A DNA stretch of 64,000 nucleotides, taken from Hyaloscypha bicolor E (lineage: Eukaryota; Ascomycota; Leotiomycetes; Helotiales; Hyaloscyphaceae). Below, in pieces: positions 42,748 through 56,163 of this stretch. Numbering within the stretch: position 1 is the stretch's first letter; each line of letters opens with the position of its first letter. The stretch lies in assembly GCF_002865645.1 (NCBI RefSeq), contig NW_020194627.1, positions 1,178,001 through 1,242,000 on the forward strand. Direction: 5' to 3'. The notes beneath the pieces are model-generated. The model ran no database searches and was not told the DNA's origin. It was given only the letters and a program-made list of their open reading frames with translations. The translations under genes were made by a program, and so were the position numbers.

Positions 42748-45200
42748 TCAAGCAAGGAAAACCCCCTCAAGCGTGCACTCGCCTCTTTCGGCCATTTCTA
42801 GAACCTCTCCATCCATAATTCCATGAACATAACTAATATGCATGGTTAGTCTTGTTCGAAGTCAGCGAAGCTTTCTTACCTCTCCCCTACAAGCCTATAC
42901 ATATAACCGTACTTCCTCAATATAAATGGTGTTACGCCTCCCTCCAAAACCGCAACTGTGTCTCCTATTCTCACTCCGGTTGGGCCCATCCCGATGTACC
43001 CCTTCTTGGTGACGATTAGTCTCCTCCATCTGAGCCAACTTCCAATTTTCATCCTTGCCCACACCATAAGAACTTTCTCCTCTTCCGGAGTCTCTGGAGG
43101 AAATGAATCAATGTCCGATAGTTTGTCCCCGATCCGCTGGAGCTTCCTCTCTCTACTTGGCCAGATATCACACAAAACTGTTCTCCAGAAAGCTTCAACT
43201 AAGGAGCCCCCAGATATGTATTCCTTGAACTCCTTGCCGACAAGATATCCTCGCCATGAATTCATTGCTCCCGGAACCGGCAACATTTCTTGGGACTCCG
43301 AAGCTAATGCACCCACGTCGACGATCTCGTCGAAACAGTACCCTCCCATACCTATGGTCCTCAAATCAGAGGAGAAGGTGTATGGTGTAGGTGATACTGT
43401 TCCTCCAGCTTTATAAAGTGGTTCAGGGGCGTGCTCTTTGTGCACCTCCGGCCCTGCATAGTTTCCATTTGCCAAGGGAAACAGCTCATCTTGAACCGTC
43501 CAATCGACTACCCAACTTGGAAGAATAAAATTGGTGTCGAATGGAGAGAGATCAGGAGCCAGCGCTTTCGCGGAGAAAAGATCGAGGTTTTGGTATTTGA
43601 GTAGTAGGTAGCAAGACGTATGGATGAAAACCCTTGCCATGGATAATCCATAGTCCGGTTGCAATGCTGGATGCTCCCTCTCGGACGCTGGTCCTATGCC
43701 AAGCGCGGCATAAACCTTATCTCTTGGGTTACTTGCATTCTGCCTCCTCATTTTCCTAAGAATTGTAGCCAGTGGCGGCGGACCAGAATCCGCCAACTCA
43801 TTCTTCAACGCTTGTAAAACGTCGCAGGATCGAAATGCGTGGATGAGTGGAGACATATTGAGTATGCATGAAATGGCGAACTTGGATTTCTCCAATTGAT
43901 TCGCATCTCCTAATTGTCCTGCAGCATGCATGAAGATATTGGAAAAGCGTTCGATGATCTTCCAATCAAAACAAAAGCTTCCACAATTCACGGTGACGGT
44001 CTTAGCAAGGACAACTTCTTGGACAATCCACGCTCGTTTAAACCACGGGCGGAGAAACAGATTCTTGAGCGCTTCAAATACGAATGCTTGACTCGCATCT
44101 TCGAATTTTCGTCTGATCCAATCCGCCATGGCAAATGCAGCGTCGTCGCTTTCTCCATGCTGAACCACATATGTCATGAATGCTACCGCGTCTTCAGTAG
44201 TGTTAGTCTCTGGTCCAAGCCAAATAACGACCTTCTCTGCGGCTGAGTATATCTGGGACATTTGCCCGACTTGGTGATTCATCTCTTCAATATCGGACTG
44301 ATTAATACACACGGCATCGATCCACATGACCCTGACGTTTCCTTCCTTTGTATAACGCAGGTGCCGTAAGGCACCAACTAAAGTCTTTGTAGCATGAAAG
44401 ACCTCTCCGTTCAGCAGGATAGGGAAAGTTTCTTGAGGATCTCCCCATGTGTACGATAGAGCTTCATATTTGGGCTCCTTTTGGAGGGAAGCAGCGCAGA
44501 GTATGCACTTCAAATCTGCAGACTTCTCCTGAGAAGGTAGAAGCACGAGTAAGCGGATATTTCCCGTTCCTCGCGGTAATGGCCGATAGATAGCTGAATA
44601 TCTATCTCGAATAGCAGAACTACCCTCGACGTCATCGTATAGCACACTTGACTCCATAATCTCGGCTTGGGCTTCATAGGACTCTGCGCTCCTATCTTCT
44701 CGCATACGCTCGATAACAGTGAGTACAAGATCATCCATCTGAGCTTTCTCAAATTCATCACCATTGGTGCTAAAATATATCCAGCGAGATGCATTTCTCA
44801 AAATATTTGTGCCCAGAAAGAAGGCGTAGTCAACTTCTCTTTTTATCTTCCCCGGTTTGTCTCGAAGCACCACCCTGAAGCTAGCTCCGGACTCGTCGGT
44901 ATGCTCGCCAGCCTCGTCGGGGATGGCTTCCCAGTCTGGGTCATTGGATGCTGGAAGCGGCAGGCCCAGCGCAAAGGCAGGACCATCGCGATTCGTCACG
45001 TTGGAGTAGAAGCGTTCGAGAAATTGGATAGTTGGGTCGGATCGAGAGCCTGGTTCTCGTTGTCGTGCCGAGAAGTCCATGAACCGCAGGTGAAAGGGGT
45101 CATCACCCCATACGGCATCTGGCAGGCGTCTTACTTCATTGAGATGATTGTTCTGTACTAAACGATTGAAGAGATTTTCTGCCATAGCTAATCCTACCAT
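42748..45200 (-). CDS. HET-domain (heterokaryon incompatibility) protein, 801 aa, two exons
   Basis: Predicted HET protein (PF06985 type), a family linked to non-self recognition and cell death in filamentous ascomycetes. Exon 1 is complement(42,880-45,200), a 47-bp GT-AG intron spans 42,833-42,879, and exon 2 is complement(42,748-42,832). The long open frame appears to stop at 42,876, but that TAA lies inside the intron's GTAAG donor. Splicing joins LVGE to S-YVHGIMDGEV and ends at TGA 42,748, restoring the conserved HET C-terminal signature. Exons sum to 2,406 nt, a multiple of three. The HET domain spans about residues 245-415, with YEALSYTWGD (245-254), MWIDAVCINQ (292-301) and LRPWFKRAWIVQE. 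Residues 1-200 are an unrecognised N-terminal extension. A second ATG six codons in (MAENLF) may be the true start. It is divergent from the AAA ATPase gene with 482 bp between starts. Confidence 0.9.
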
Positions 45201-45682
45201 GCAAAGCTAGCTTGGTCTTGGGGAAAGCAAAGACGAGGCTGAAGTCAAAAGTTCCGAAATCGAGATGGGTCAGCAACTCCTACAGTCTGAGAGTAGGCTG
45301 AGGATTGTGCGCAAGGCATTCCACGAGGCCCAGTCGTATTTATATTTATGTAAGCCGTATCATTCCGCCCGACTTGCGAAGGATTCGTGCATATCGGGCG
45401 TCGAATGATCGGCGAACACAAATCCCGGCGGTAAAAAGGAAATTCATTTCAAATTTCGATGCATTAATAGGCTCCACTTAACTTATCTTCCCAAAACCAG
45501 CAACGTTTTTACATTGTTCCATTGAAATCTTCTTGAGGTTGCTGCTCTTTTTCCAAAACTTATTTGATTTTACGTTAGCGCCTCTCTTGGAATCAAAGAC
45601 ACAAGGTTTAAGGTTTGACTCTGCCATCCCCGGTACAATACATCGACTCTTCGACGACTGTCCAAGGTGAACATACTTGACC
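45201..45682. promoter_or_regulatory. Shared bidirectional promoter of HET and AAA genes
   Basis: 482 bp separate the two divergent start codons. On the HET side the sequence is AT-rich near 45,335-45,355 (TATTTATATTTATG), a possible core promoter. The AAA start used is ATG at 45,683; an in-frame TTG two codons upstream is ignored. The spacing allows co-regulation, but no specific binding site was identified. Confidence 0.5.
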
Positions 45683-48296
45683 ATGCTATCACATAAGTGG
45701 AAGCGGACCAAGAATGGCAAAGAACCAGCAAAGCAATCCGCTGAAGAGTCACATGAAGACATCGAAGATGTGTTAGCAAGCCTAGACTCTTCAAGTTCAA
45801 AATCCAAGAAATGGTACGACCCTATGGTGCCTAATCGTATCAAATACGGCGTGGAGGACAACGTCAAAAAGTTGTATGAGGGCCCACAGAAGTGTTCCTG
45901 CTGCATCAATTGGGTAGAAGAATACCCAGACAATTTGAGAGAGAACTTACTAGCCACAAATGAAGTCAAACAGCACGCTATCGTGACGAAGTACATGAGA
46001 AATCACAAGGGCGACAAACCTCTAGTACTTCATTCAATCGACATTCAGAGTTCTATTCTCAAAGTCGTCCTTGAGGAGGTCTTTGAAGGTTACAGCGGCA
46101 TCACAACTGGCCTAGACAATCTCTCTTTCGCAGCTCCTTTTCAAGCATTTTTTCGGCGACTCGATCGTCTTGAAGAAGGTTCAAGGAACCGGGATGACCC
46201 TAAAGCGCTTTATCAAACAAAGCTATTGTACGAGATTATCAACAACGAGCTCAAAGAGTCAGTCGAAATATTCAAGGATCTCGTGGCTCACAAAGTAATC
46301 ACTTTCGAGTATCTTTGGGCCCTCTTCACTCCAGGAGAGATGATCAGAACTGAGAAAGACCGCATTTTTCTCCTCAACGATGCAGACTATGGCAATTCCG
46401 GCGGCTTCACTCTTTGGGTAAGGTTCATCGATTGGGATGGGACCCAATTCGGCTATGACAGAGCAACAATCTCAATCCCAAAGTTTGATGGAACCAGGCC
46501 GATTACTGATTTAGAAGGGTATCCAGCTTCGTTCGATCCGGGATTGGACGGGGTGAAGGCTACTCTGGTGATGAAAGGGAAAAAGTTCGAAGAACTGCAG
46601 GGTTTTCACTACATGGCCCATAGAGGCATGGTTGTCGAAGCCAATGCTGGCGTCTGGTCTTTTGGCAGTGAAACTCGACATGTAGGCCTCTCAGGAAATT
46701 TTTGCTCCACTAGCAACTGATATAAGGATAGGTCGAAGGTCGAATAATTGTGGATGCTGGCTCGTATTTCCGCTTCAATCCGCATGAAGTAAAATCGCTG
46801 AAGTCTTTGGACGACCAAGGAAAACTACTCGAGATACCGGGCATGTTGAAAAATACGGATATTCATAATTCGACTTTTACATCTTCCTACGATGCACATT
46901 ACGGAAGTTACAATAGAACCCCTCGCGAAGTGACTAAGCCCTACCGCTACTCAGACGAGTATGATACGGCGGGACTAAAAGTTGGAAAGAAGCTCAAGAT
47001 AGTCTCAGGTGAATGCGGCTCCATGATATTGAAATAATTGAGAACTGACTAGTTGAATAGCGAGCCGTCCACTGACAGATAATGAGTTGATCTTGTGCAC
47101 GCAGTCGGTCAGAGGATTTTCACTAAAGACGAAGCACTGGGGTGAGTAAACACTTGTGTGGTTACCTTTACAACAAAGCTCATGTCGTCTAGCATCCTTC
47201 GCAGTGGCAGATATTAGCAACATCAAGTGGGACGAGAATGCTTTTGAAAGTTTGGTCTTACCATCGAACTACAAACAACTCATCCTCTCTTTCGTGGAGG
47301 GACAACTCCACTACAAGGACGATTTTGATGACGTGATCGAAGGAAAAGGTCTGATTTCAAATATCCTATGCACACGTTTCTATGCCAAGCGCAGTGCTGA
47401 CTTTCTAAGGACGAGGAATTATAATCTTGTTAGCTGGTGTTCCAGGTGTTGGAAAGACATTGACTGCTGAATCAGGTAAGGCTCTAGAGAGCATCGATAC
47501 ATGGCAACTGATAGCTCATTGTTCTTTAGTCGCCGAGACTTTGCGAGCCCCACTCTACTCCATGACAGCCGGCGAACTAAGTCTAGACGCAACCAATCTC
47601 GAGGAATCTCTCACCAAGATTCTAGAAATAAGCACAAAATGGAATTCGGTGCTTCTGTTAGACGAGGCCGATGTTTTTCTCGAACAACGAAGCAGTTCTC
47701 ATCTAGAGAGAAATAAGCTTGTTTCAAGTAAGTACTCCTTCGGCGTGTACCCGTGATAATATCAGCTAACGAGCAAAGTCTTCCTCCGAATGTTGGAATA
47801 CTACAGAGGAATTCTTTTCCTAACCACTAACCGCCTTTCTGCTTTTGATTCTGCTTTCCAATCTCGTATCCACATCACGATCAACTATCCCCCACTCTCC
47901 TCCTCTGCACGCTCTCAGATCTGGCGCAACTTCCTGTTGTTAGCACCCAACAAGCCAAAACCCTCTGAGCCTTTGGCACCTGATATTTCAGTGTCCGAAT
48001 CTTCTGCTCCCCCCAAAGCAGCCGGCACGACGTCAGATGTGCAAACCCTGGTACCTGATTCGCACCACACTCGAGTGGAAACACATGCTCCTCTTCTGAC
48101 TTCCATCTCAGAGGCTGAGATCATGAAACTGGCAGAGATTGACCTGAACGGTCGCCAGATTAAGAACGTTGTCAAGACCAGTAGGCTTCTCGCACGAAGA
48201 TTGGGGAAAAGCCTAGGTATTGAGGAGGTGAACACTGTGTTGGAAGCTACGAGTCCTAATTTGCTTTCGGAAAGTATCAAGAATGAAATTTCTTGA
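45683..48296 (+). CDS. DUF7025-AAA+ ATPase, 758 aa, seven exons
   Basis: Exons: 45,683-46,681; 46,732-47,008; 47,079-47,141; 47,193-47,348; 47,410-47,475; 47,530-47,727; 47,779-48,296. All six introns (50-70 bp) are GT-AG and exons total 2,277 nt, so what look like fragments form one intact gene. The N-terminal two-thirds has the layout of fungal DUF7025/AAA proteins, with LILCTQSVRGFSLKTKHW just before the ATPase. ATPase landmarks: Walker A GVPGVGKT (508-515), Walker B VLLLDE (561-566), sensor-1 region LTTNR (601-605), arginine-finger candidate in FQSRIH (R616) and sensor-2-like NGRQIKN (710-716). All key residues are kept. The lid region holds a Pro/Ser-rich insert (about 640-690). It is probably a nucleotide-driven remodelling ATPase of unknown substrate. 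Divergent neighbour of the HET gene. Confidence 0.9.
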
Positions 48297-51838: not shown

Positions 51839-52681
51839 TTAATTATTAAAGAAGTCTTTCCTGCCATACTTGTTCTCTAGCAGACCCTTTTTATACTCTT
51901 CCACTTTAATACCGTTATACTTATAAGACGCCCTAATTGCACCGCCCTTCTAATTACTACTATACGCATTACCGGCCAGACCCTTACTACCGAGCGTAAT
52001 ATTCGAGTACTAGTGACTTGCAACTACTTCCTTTACCGTTTTTTGAAGCAGGCCATTAATATCTATAGCTATATTCTCAATTAGCTCGAGAGACTGCTTG
52101 TCGCTAATCTCTGCTGCTTCTTATTAGACAAGCATGGCTTGGGCCTGAGGTATAGGGAATAATTTTTCAATCTTGTTAATAAATAAGACGATCTGTTCGA
52201 GAAGGTCTTTTAGAGTGGACCGGTAATAGAGAGCCCAGCTAGCAAGGTTTAAGAATCAACCCTTCTTTTAATGCTATATAGCCAAGCCTTTTATCTTATT
52301 ATCTAGTATAACTATCTTTGGATCCATATTGCCTGTCAAATATACTAAGAGATCCTTACTAGCCTTTATAGTCAACTTGTACTTCTTGGAGATGCTCTCG
52401 GTATCCGCAAAGAGTATAAGAATTTGGAGTAATATATCCTTTGCAAGTTAGATCTCGGTTATAGTAGTATCCTGCCTGCCTAGTTTAGGATCGTCGTAGA
52501 TATTGACAGACTCGCCCTATTATATAAGACGGAGGCTCGCGTAGTTGAGAGCAAGCTGGCTAGTCGTGAAATCTCGACCGAAGTGGCGGCCAAACTGGAC
52601 GTACTCGAAGCAGTCAATACAAGCAGTGAAAGCAGATGCAATGCCAATGGCACCGGAGATAATGCCGAACGGCTCTGCCAT
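51839..52681 (-). pseudogene. HET-S-like HeLo / prion-domain gene, RIP-killed
   Basis: One uninterrupted 281-codon frame on the minus strand, ATG at 52,681 to TAA at 51,839, with about ten internal stops and no frameshift. It matches the HeLo family from the first residues: MAEPFG, then CIDCFEYVQFG and HFGRD, GESVNIYDDPK, SKKYKLT. HET-S, a membrane-damaging cell-death protein, has the same layout and length (289 aa). The C-terminal 70 residues hold two sigma-type repeats with the G-N landmark: KGLAGNAYSSN, then KGLLENKYGRKDFFNN at the very end, like the HET-s prion domain that ends in an FW-type motif. Stops fall where Trp/Gln/Arg codons are expected, as made by C-to-T change. It is divergent from the NACHT-WD40 relic, with a transposon between. 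Non-functional as it stands. Confidence 0.85.
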
Positions 52682-52778
52682 TGTTAAGATTAATGGTAAT
52701 GCAAGAGATATACTAGAGGTTGAGGGAGAGAGTTAGTAGGAAGTCTTTACCAGAATTTCAGCCGCAGCCTTATTATCT

Positions 52779-54045
52779 TACGAGCCTGGTTGCATAAGTC
52801 TGTATTTTTCAGGCTGTTTTAGCGAGCGCACCTCCCAATTTTAACAACCCCACCAATATACCTACTACCCCCCCACTACTTGTATTTAACCACGCTCTAG
52901 GCTTTGAAATTGATACGAAACATAAGGAGGCGATATGCCAGCTCTATGGCTTTGGAGAGAAGTTAACTGCAGAGCTAATGGAGCGCTATAAGCTTGGCAA
53001 AACCACTATTTATTACGTTTTGGAGTATAATGCGCCGGAGCGAGCTCGTTCTGGTCGAACCGGTAGATTACAGCTTTTGACGGACGCGCGAGTCAACAAG
53101 ATTATCGAATATTGCGCTAAGAATTGGGAACAAAGAATTATGGACTATTAAGCTCTGGTTGACGAGCTAGAATTGGAATGCACGGCTTCTATATTATAGA
53201 AACGACTCCACTAAAGAGGCTATTTTCGCTGTATCGCTTGTTAAAAACCTTACCTTATTGCCGCACAAGTTCTTGGTCGATTACTTTGGGCGATTATATA
53301 TATATTTTGGTACGAGGAATGGCTAAAGGTACTTTGGTCGGACGAGGTCACATTCTTAGTAGGGGGAAGGACAGTGAAGTGTAAAGTAATAAGAAATAAG
53401 TCGGAGCGGACACATCCAACTTGTATATAATACCAGTTTTACTACGGCGGTACGGTACTAGTTAATGTATAGGGAGCGATTGGATATAGCTATAAGAGTC
53501 CTTTAATATTTATCTACGGTTCTAGTAAGAAGGGTGCCTTTACGCAAAAGAATTATCTCTCTCAAGTTCTCGAATATATCCAGCCAATTCTTGAGGCTTT
53601 TGCGGCTGTAACCCATCTCTTTTGCCCCTCTGTCAAGCCCTTATTTATGGAAGACGGCAACTCAGCTTACGGTCACAAGTCGACGAGAAACTGCTGTGCT
53701 CGATATCGTACTATATATGGTATTATTTTAATGCCTCACTTGTTAATAAGCCCTAATATGAATCTAATTGAGAAGTATTAGAGGAGAATCAAGTCGGTAT
53801 TATACAGACAAAGGCATTAACCCACTACAGTTGCGGAGATGGAAGCAATAGTACTAGAGGAATGGAACAGGATACTATAAGATTGGATAAATAAGCTGAT
53901 TCTAAAGCAGAAGTATTGGGTTCAGATGCTAATGAAGCATTATAGATAGTCAACTCCTAATTAAATATAATATAGTCGTGAATTAATTAGAGTGAAGTGT
54001 GCCTGATAGCCTGAAAAACACAGACTTATGTGACCAGGCTCGTTA
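52779..54045 (+). mobile_element. Tc1/mariner-like DNA transposon, about 1.27 kb
   Basis: Inverted ends of about 40 bp. The left starts ACGAGCCTGG, then CATAAGTCTGTATTTTTCAG; the complement of the right end reads ACGAGCCTGG, then CATAAGTCTGTGTTTTTCAG. TA dinucleotides sit at the boundaries, as expected for the superfamily, although the left one is ambiguous by a base. The interior is filled by a broken transposase gene. It sits in the intergenic region between the HET-S-like and NLR relics, leaving only about 275 bp of original DNA between them. Confidence 0.85.
52850..53963 (+). pseudogene. Tc1-like transposase relic
   Basis: Translates through stops as a Tc1/mariner transposase. It has an N-terminal helix-turn-helix region (YGFGEKLTAELMERYKLGKT), an RSGRTGR linker and a DDE core. 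The first Asp lies in VLWSDEVTFL (codon at 53,341), the second in MEDGNSAYGHKS (53,653) and the Glu in MNLIEKYW (53,770). In the frame as it stands, 38 residues separate the second Asp from the Glu, more than the 34 of classical Tc1. The three catalytic residues survive, but several TAG/TAA codons, one directly after RIMDY, break the frame. No indel is needed to read it. Confidence 0.8.
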
Positions 54046-54223
54046 GTGACCTTTCCGCTATAGGGCAAATGCATTGTGCCTCTCATTAATAACGAGATCG
54101 TGTTAGTACCGATTTGCGAGAGAAGGTAGAGCTTTTTGCACTATATAACTAATTGACTAGGGCTATAGGCTCTCGCAAGCGCTTTCTCTACTTTACGGCA
54201 GCTAGCTTATACGGTGGATTGCA
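54046..54223. promoter_or_regulatory. Remnant upstream region of the NACHT-WD40 relic
   Basis: About 178 bp between the transposon and the NLR start. Together with 52,682-52,778 it is what remains of the divergent intergenic region. It contains an inverted pair TTGCGAGAGAAGGTAGAGC and CTCTCGCAAGCGCTTTCTC. No promoter element could be verified. Confidence 0.35.
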
Positions 54224-55292
54224 ATGTCAGATCCCGAGCAGCCAGGTTGGGCTAGTAACTAGTACCGAAATATTCGGGTTAATAAAGGCATAAAAGCCCA
54301 TTTTGGAAATATATATTATACTAGTTAGCTTCTTGCAAGTATAAAGAAGACTCTTACTATAAACTGACATATAATAGGCCGAGAAGACCCCCTCAGCCTC
54401 CTTCTGTCTGCAATACAGGTGCCGTTTAATTCCCGCGACCAGTAATATAAATCTGCCTGCCTCCCTAATATATATATTGACCTTCTATAAGAGATTTATA
54501 ATTGGGCTAATAGAACAGACAGACAAGATAAGCGATATATTTTCTGGCTAAACGGCCTAGCTAGAACGGGAAAGTTAATAGTCGCCCGTACTATTACCCG
54601 CAAATATAATAAGCAGAAGCGTCTTGAAGCCAGCTTCTTCTTCTTAAAGGGTGGCGGAGATATGAGCCATGTAGTTAAGTTCTTTATGAGTCTTGCCGTA
54701 TAGCTTGCATATGCCATGCCATCTCTCTAAACCTATATCCGTAATACTATAAGAGAGCGGAGTAATATTGCGAATCTGTTCCTATTAGACTAGTGGTACT
54801 AGCTTGTTTTCGGTCCCCTATTAAGGCTAGAGAAATCCTACCAGTTCTATATTTTTGTTATTAATACGCTTAATAAGTATAAAGGTAATAATAATATCCA
54901 GATTATTCTAGAGCTTTTAGCTAAGGCTTAATTACTAAAAATAATATGACTTCGAGTTTTTCTAATGAGTAGACCCGAAATTCTAATCCGATACGGTATA
55001 TAATATATTCTATAAGCTAAATACGAAGACTTTATACTTTATAATATACCGCTTATAATTATTAACTATAATATCTCTTTATTTCTGGAATATAATCTAG
55101 GGATAATTAGGCAGGAGTAAAGTCTTAGAATATACTAGTTAGGCAAAGTAGTTCTGGGACAGCTAGTTCTATATACTTGTAGCCTCTTTATTTGGGCGGT
55201 AATGGCATGTCGGTTTATCTGTAAAGGAAAGCGATTTGTACTAAAGAGACTAGATATAATTCTTAAGGGCGGCAGTAGTAGTGCTATTGTAG

Positions 55293-55509
55293 TGGGGATT
55301 TTATCCCCTGGTCACGTGGTTCTGTCATGTGACCTCCGGACATCCGTACAGTCCGCAGTCCGCTTATATTACCCCTCTCTCCTTCTTAGTTCTTAGAAAT
55401 AAACCAACCTTCACTCTCTAATTTCACTCCTTACTCGTATACTGTGATCCCACACTGTGGAAGCCCATTCTACTCTATATATTACTTCGTATTTTATATC
55501 CCCATTATA
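55293..55509. mobile_element. 217-bp solo-LTR-like insert in the NLR relic
   Basis: Begins TGGGGATTTTATCCCC and ends near ATATCCCCATTATA, giving short inverted ends (TGGGGAT / ATCCCCA). It is flanked by CTATTGTAG (55,284-55,292) and CTATTATAG (55,510-55,518), probably a target duplication altered by one transition. It interrupts the NLR between SSSAIV and PEKYLNE. It is less RIP-mutated than its host. Solo LTR is the best guess; a small DNA element is possible. Confidence 0.6.
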
Positions 55510-55639
55510 CTATTATAGTACCAGAGAAGTACCTCAATGAGATTTACCTTACTATTCTCAAAAACTCGATTTCTTTAGAATATTCGAATAAAGAGAAACG
55601 AGAGATATGTAATATATTAAAGTATATACTTGGAAGTAT

Positions 55640-55765
55640 AGTAGTACTACTTTTGAAGGCGATTTGAGAATTATATCCTATATTGGATTCAGTTAAAACC
55701 AAGTATTTTTCGAAGGCGATTTGGGGATTATATCCTAGATTGGATTGAGTTAAAACCAAAAGTAC
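55640..55765. repeat. About 60-bp tandem duplication in the NLR relic
   Basis: Two copies of a unit containing GAAGGCGATTTG, ATTATATCCTA and GTTAAAACCAA, at about 55,655 and 55,712. They lie at the junction where the NACHT C-terminal region meets the surviving WD40 blades, so they may mark the deletion event that removed the rest of the propeller. Confidence 0.7.
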
Positions 55766-56163
55766 AAGTATATTGGAATACTGTACTACAGATACTCGAG
55801 GGCCACTCTGCCGGGGTTAGCTCCATGGCCTTTTCACGCGACGGCAAGCAGGTCGTATCGGGCTCGCTCAATAAGACGGTGCGGCTCTGGGACGCCGCTA
55901 TGGGCAAAGTACAGTGGACGCTCGAAGGCCACTCTGCCGGGGTCAGCTCCGTAGCCTTCTCACGCGACTATAAGCTACTACCTACCTTACGTGTGTCTAA
56001 TTATTGGGTAGCAGAAGGTGAAGCGAATATTCTCTGGCTACCTTCTAATTACCGATTTATATAAAATGCTATTTGGGATTAAACTATCGTTTTAGGACAT
56101 TTATTAAAGGAACTCTCATTTCTTAAATTTAAACAAGGACCAAAGCTTATAATATATAACTAA

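Follow-up and report, generated by a model that had tools for sequence, protein, structure and literature searches.

In Podospora anserina, HET-S and its receptor NWD2 are encoded by a divergent gene pair, the receptor carries an N-terminal motif, and nwd2 is inactivated by a transposon in het-s strains, as described in the accessible parts of PMC3321046 and PMC4344463. In the former, residue 33 is given as the determinant of HET-S versus HET-s type. A receptor neighbour of this kind was counted for 98 of 155 HeLo-related genes (PMC4518210, in the part available). Two further Podospora genes of the NACHT-WD40 class, NWDp1 and NWDp2, have been inactivated by repeat-induced point mutation (RIP) with their WD40 repeats spared, which the authors propose to explain by replacement with repeats of active loci (PMC1805685, accessible parts). 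Here we describe a locus at positions 51,839–56,163 of a 64,000-nucleotide stretch of the Hyaloscypha bicolor E genome (contig NW_020194627.1, 1,178,001–1,242,000; the whole stretch is referred to as the window), which very probably represents the remains of a HET-S/NWD2 pair struck by RIP and transposition. The original prediction, made from the bare sequence, had proposed a former module of this type killed in these two ways, and this reading is strengthened by an amyloid motif in the receptor itself (r0), by the direction and context of the base changes, and by two insertions.

The HeLo gene is read on the minus strand from 52,681 to 51,839 in a single frame of 280 codons plus terminal stop, with 10 in-frame stops and no frameshift. 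With the stops read as X, the frame matches the Pfam HeLo model over its full length (6.2e-35, profile positions 1–205 of 205), and the solved HET-s/S HeLo structures 2wvn (9.4e-43) and 2wvo (1.1e-42) match residues 1–213 of the query; structure 2wvq was likewise matched in the PDB search. A homologue search with the HeLo copy of a second pair, at C24, returned 250 proteins, of which 120 relatives were used as listed. These are mostly about 280 residues long, and the named ones among the matches listed come from Oidiodendron, Bisporella, Pseudogymnoascus, Hyaloscypha, Lachnellula, Agyrium, Xanthoria and Curvularia; we take the nearest named relatives to be Leotiomycetes and lichen fungi. An open 280-residue relative, P0039, is 79% identical to the window protein over readable positions. 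In the alignment columns, residue 33 is His in both the window and C24 copies. With His at this position marking HET-S and Pro marking HET-s, the window protein carries the killer-type residue (His, not Pro).

The triad of amyloid motifs r0, r1 and r2 is the signature of HET-S/NWD2 pairs. Profiles for r1 and r2 were built from the HeLo C-termini of the 120 listed relatives only, with no receptor sequence used, and each was scanned over the window in six frames (127,876 positions). Both C-terminal repeats of 21 residues, which the original prediction had recognized, are kept in the HeLo frame: r1 at 51,959–52,021 (minus strand, 33.0 bits, one internal stop) and r2 at 51,866–51,928 (minus strand, 37.3 bits, decayed, with the otherwise conserved Gly 19 changed), the best scores outside the pair being 7.8 for the r1 profile and 6.4 for the r2 profile. 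The position ranking second in the window with the r2 profile is 54,254–54,316 on the plus strand, scoring 22.6 bits, and the next unrelated position reaches only 6.4. It lies at the N-terminus of the receptor, in frame with the ATG at 54,224, and none of 5000 shuffled receptor N-termini reached its score. This r0 motif, which was absent from the original prediction, is the decisive addition made here. Its one internal stop falls at motif position 4, and it fits the pattern given in the accessible part of PMC4518210 (hydrophobic residues at positions 5, 8, 10, 16, and 18, Lys or Arg at 15, and Gly at 19). With the r1 profile, r0 reaches only 5.1 bits, which ranks fifth in the window and is equalled in 10 of 5000 shuffles; by profile score, the window motif is thus more r2-like than r1-like, as described for groups HRAM1 and HRAM4 in the same part of PMC4518210. 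As a lead, judged without the logos of that paper, the His at position 3 makes the HeLo repeat consensus look like its group HRAM3.

A NACHT-WD40 gene on the plus strand, head to head with the HeLo gene, had also been proposed and was found as such. The receptor pseudogene (r0, NACHT, and WD40; 54,224–56,163, plus strand) matches the Pfam models NPHP3_N, a NACHT-type NTPase family (7.3e-12), and WD40 (5.6e-18, two units). A probable intron with GT..AG borders, placed by eye at 54,324–54,377 and similar in the C24 copy, separates r0 from the NACHT/P-loop NTPase region at 54,500–54,973. The latter stretch contains 12 in-frame stops and is 54% identical to the corresponding stretch at C24. Relative to the C24 copy, the receptor lacks about 0.6 kb of the sequence separating NACHT from WD40, and only two WD40 units are left, in a relatively spared, stop-free island at 55,785–55,974.

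The start codons of the HeLo gene (52,681) and the receptor (54,224) diverge from a gap of 1,542 bp that is occupied by a decayed Tc1/mariner-type element (52,777–54,046, plus strand), whose inverted ends match at 36 of 45 positions. When the 1,270 bp of the element are subtracted, about 270 bp remain, compared with 284 bp at C24. No clear target-site repeat is present at the flanks of the element. Its nearest large copies are 69–74% identical, and one open copy (L047) encodes DDE_3 and HTH_Tnp_Tc3_2. A comparison of the element with five copies (577 usable columns) yields 39 differences of RIP type, 14 in the reverse direction and 21 transversions. A short, internally deleted derivative of the element lies at C1:2,438,584–2,439,068, with ends 87–89% identical to the window copy. 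The second insertion is a solo long terminal repeat (LTR) within the receptor gene (about 55,288–55,509, plus strand), with best copies 93–95% identical. It is flanked on both sides by CTAT, a candidate for the target-site copy among several short repeats. Against three copies it has four differences in 203 columns, all four of RIP type and in CpA/TpG context, and because the differences are so few the LTR appears to have arrived late.

RIP has acted on the pair. The mutational steps were counted along the cheapest paths at the 107 HeLo codons that are conserved in at least 90% of the relatives; 25 of these are changed, and for 21 of the 25 the change is explained by C>T/G>A alone. Twenty-four of the 30 steps are of this type, 18 of them in CpA/TpG context; the other six are transversions, and reverse transitions are absent. 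The same treatment of the C24 HeLo copy gave 5 RIP-type, 3 reverse and 12 transversion steps over 17 changed codons. Where the window HeLo frame has its 10 stops, the 12 nearest relatives carry, among 120 pooled residues, Gln (70), Arg (24), Trp (24), Lys (1), and His (1). TA/AT and (CA+TG)/(AC+GT) are 1.31 and 0.95 for the window HeLo gene, 1.37 and 0.75 for the receptor, and 0.88 and 1.20 for the C24 HeLo gene, and the composite index is positive for the window pair and negative for C24, by the usual cut-offs. As for a repeat partner that could have triggered RIP, the C24 and window DNA are 66–70% identical over two main stretches, which falls below the 80% quoted in the accessible part of PMC1805685. 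The mariner-type element is repeated, and its nearest large copies now reach only the 69–74% noted above. Elsewhere in the window, positions 1–40,000 are extremely AT-rich (G+C content 0.16, with three kilobases below 0.10) and show strong RIP indices.

The genome searched comprises 82.04 Mb in 76 contigs, and counts for large families are lower bounds. There are 15 Pfam HeLo matches, by our own count at 13 places, and the NACHT matches number at least 82. Only two HeLo loci are HET-S-like, the window locus (C50) and C24:2,732,815–2,733,660; the next ones are 38% and 26% identical, and a search with P0039 as query agrees (11 matches at E up to 10). The C24 pair (L009) has the same divergent layout, with motif scores of 26.1 for r0, 41.5 for r1, and 40.2 for r2. 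It is also broken. Its HeLo frame has one stop, a C>T/G>A-type change at a codon whose residue is identical in 120 of 120 relatives, and in the receptor neither the start codon nor r0 is in frame, r0 also containing a stop; an extra frame change at an A run in the NACHT region may be an assembly error and was not counted. The C24 and window HeLo proteins are 55% identical. In the tree, the window copy falls in a clade of 36 rows (100/100) whose named members include Bisporella, Pseudogymnoascus, Hyaloscypha and Lachnellula, and C24 lies outside this clade, grouped with P0001 (90/98), the bootstrap values being rough according to the program's own warning. As the tree places the two copies in different lineages, we reject a recent duplication of the pair.

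A third trace, at C70:2,897,610–2,897,708 (L061), consists of a well-preserved r2 and C-terminus, 31 residues that match P0039 250–280 with an r2 score of 50.3; r1 was not found in the surrounding 3.1 kb, nor was a Pfam HeLo match. Motif scores stayed below 10 at the other 11 HeLo loci and at 18 further NWD-type receptor loci, the highest being 9.3; the receptor scan covered about 1.5 kb on each side of the match at these 18 loci, with 45 weaker match rows outside it. The original prediction had left the choice between loss of the system and an intact paralogue elsewhere, with a genome search for intact HeLo and NACHT-WD40 pairs. The search did reveal one other, paralogous pair, at C24, but a broken one, and no intact HET-S/NWD2 pair was found in the 82.04 Mb, so that loss fits the assembly better.

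Two other HeLo loci have a different composition. At C70 (L012, 4,473–7,195), a HET-domain frame (9e-28) comes directly after a HeLo gene (2.1e-46), and the two may form one spliced protein or a gene pair. At C6 (L010, 1,907–5,816), a HeLo frame precedes a NACHT frame with ankyrin-like repeats at its end, the repeats recognized by eye, and this is probably a receptor with a built-in killer domain. Within the window, about 7 kb from the dead pair, an open frame of 776 residues on the minus strand (42,876–45,206) contains a HET (heterokaryon incompatibility) domain (PF06985, 1.4e-32), and pieces of DUF7025 and an AAA ATPase at 45,671–48,296 on the plus strand are probably a single gene with introns or frame breaks.

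Some observations weigh against regarding the locus as a former HET-S/NWD2 pair. The Pfam HET-s prion model PF11558 (HET-s_218-289) has no match in the window protein, and a profile search of the whole genome with this model was also negative, the latter being uninformative since no positive control responded. The Pfam NACHT model itself does not match the decayed window frame, where only NPHP3_N responds; it does match the C24 receptor copy (2.9e-11). The nearest relatives were compared at the protein level only. Furthermore, the window NACHT region scores 312 bits with a C5 receptor that has no HeLo partner and 302 bits with the partnered receptor at C24, about equal values that suggest no preference for the latter. 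This near tie arises because the NACHT family is common to several receptors, and NACHT similarity was rejected as proof of pairing. With regard to the prion model, the 120 listed relatives also carry only PF14479, without PF11558, and the model seems narrower than the HET-S family. The HET-s similarity expected at 51,839–52,681 was thus recovered for the HeLo domain, by structures and by Pfam, but not by the prion model, and the repeats were found by the profiles. If the NACHT comparison were taken at face value, with the window region about as close to receptors lacking a HeLo partner, a HeLo pseudogene might simply adjoin an unrelated NACHT-WD40 pseudogene by chance in a RIP-mutated region, in a genome with so many NACHT matches and 15 HeLo matches at 13 places. 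We find such a coincidence scarcely credible, given that r0 is in frame from the receptor ATG at 22.6 bits versus 6.4 for the next unrelated position, that motif scores remain under 10 at all 18 of the other NWD-type receptor loci scanned, and that the identical arrangement recurs at C24.

It is similarly hard to believe that the genes are still in use, with stops that are read through, edited, or due to sequencing errors, even if the terminal domains are recognizable and the WD40 island is stop-free. There are 10 stops in the HeLo frame and 12 in the NACHT stretch, in addition to the gap of about 0.6 kb, the LTR and the insertion between the start codons; the mutations have the type and context of RIP, and another window gene, the 776-residue frame, is open. 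A more serious question is whether the pair first became dispensable, for example after loss of a partner or ligand, and was already dead when RIP and transposons reached it. Few RIP-type changes accompanied the decay of the C24 pair, and lost constraint alone therefore suffices in this genome; moreover, loss of one partner orphans the other, as proposed in the accessible part of PMC3321046. However, the 280 codons of the window HeLo frame are free of indels, and non-RIP steps account for only 6 of 30 at the 107 conserved codons, and the frame was therefore little altered when RIP struck. We consider this sequence of events possible, if somewhat unlikely. For a pair killed by RIP and transposition, the mariner-type element would have entered the shared promoter, RIP would then have spread through the element and the genes, and the solo LTR would have come later.

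By homology, the pair would once have been functional. In the living state, a ligand would be bound by the WD40 repeats of the receptor, and the NACHT domain would drive oligomerization that clusters the r0 motifs. The clustered r0 would adopt a β-solenoid amyloid fold and template r1 and r2 of the HET-S protein, whereupon the HeLo domain would be released to disrupt the membrane and kill the fungus's own cell.

The WD40 island differs from its surroundings, with a G+C content of 0.61 against 0.30 and 0.31 in the flanks. CA/TA is 1.20 in the island and 0.16 in the NACHT stretch, and TG/TA is 0.70 and 0.25, respectively. Full sparing is contradicted by the positive composite RIP index of the island (+0.76, from few counts), by CA/TA of 2.2–3.3, above the island, in three comparable WD40 stretches elsewhere, and by (CA+TG)/TA, which at 2.45 is somewhat higher in the HeLo 5′ end than in the island (1.9–2.0). 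The island is therefore relatively spared, and an unmutated state is not proven. The best other WD40 DNA in the genome is 77% identical over the island length (up to 84% over 67 bases), and hence no donor is evident. A far-reaching joint reading would be that the fungus has lost amyloid-triggered HET-S death altogether, and that the WD40 repeats of the dead receptor were renewed by exchange after RIP. In its first part, three HET-S genes would have been lost by three routes, C50 by RIP and transposons, C24 by stop and frame lesions with little RIP, and C70 by truncation to the last 31 residues, with other HeLo and NACHT-WD40 genes persisting. Loss of every HET-S module found rests on one assembly and cannot be established for the species, and the probability of the joint reading is lowered by the positive composite RIP index of the island; we regard it as doubtful. 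If the renewal were true, a dead locus would still take part in repeat shuffling. The two broken pairs of separate lineages, together with the fragment, provide a natural case for asking whether one partner is orphaned when the other is lost, and the same set bears on whether fungi repeatedly shed amyloid death modules.

No earlier account of a RIP-killed HET-S/NWD2 pair was found in the accessible text of open-licence PMC papers, supplements lying outside, and no wider absence is claimed. The comparisons with Podospora that follow are drawn from the parts of the cited papers that were available. The C24 pair resembles the window pair in layout and in the r0/r1/r2 triad, but belongs to a separate lineage, has no mariner insert and negative RIP indices, and was broken mostly by non-RIP lesions. 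NWDp1 and NWDp2 (PMC1805685) are similar to the window receptor in that both CA/TA and TG/TA rise from low values in NACHT to higher ones in WD40, and the WD40 island resembles the sparing in these pseudogenes. They differ in that no HeLo partner is mentioned for them there, and sparing in the window is weaker (CA/TA 1.20, positive composite index); exchange with active loci, as proposed for Podospora, finds no close donor here, with the closest WD40 DNA at 77%. As in HET-S/NWD2 of Podospora anserina, the genes are adjacent and divergent, the HeLo protein ends in two repeats, the NACHT-WD40 receptor has a single N-terminal repeat and was hit by a transposon, which in Podospora left a scar in het-s strains. 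The repeats start 31 residues apart in the window compared with 36 in HET-S (226–246 and 262–282). Unlike in Podospora, the killer gene has also been destroyed, with RIP-type mutations, and of the two insertions one is a mariner-type element separating the start codons and the other a solo LTR inside the receptor gene. The window pair is thus a dead addition to a known kind, with both the pair type and the modes of death already known from Podospora.

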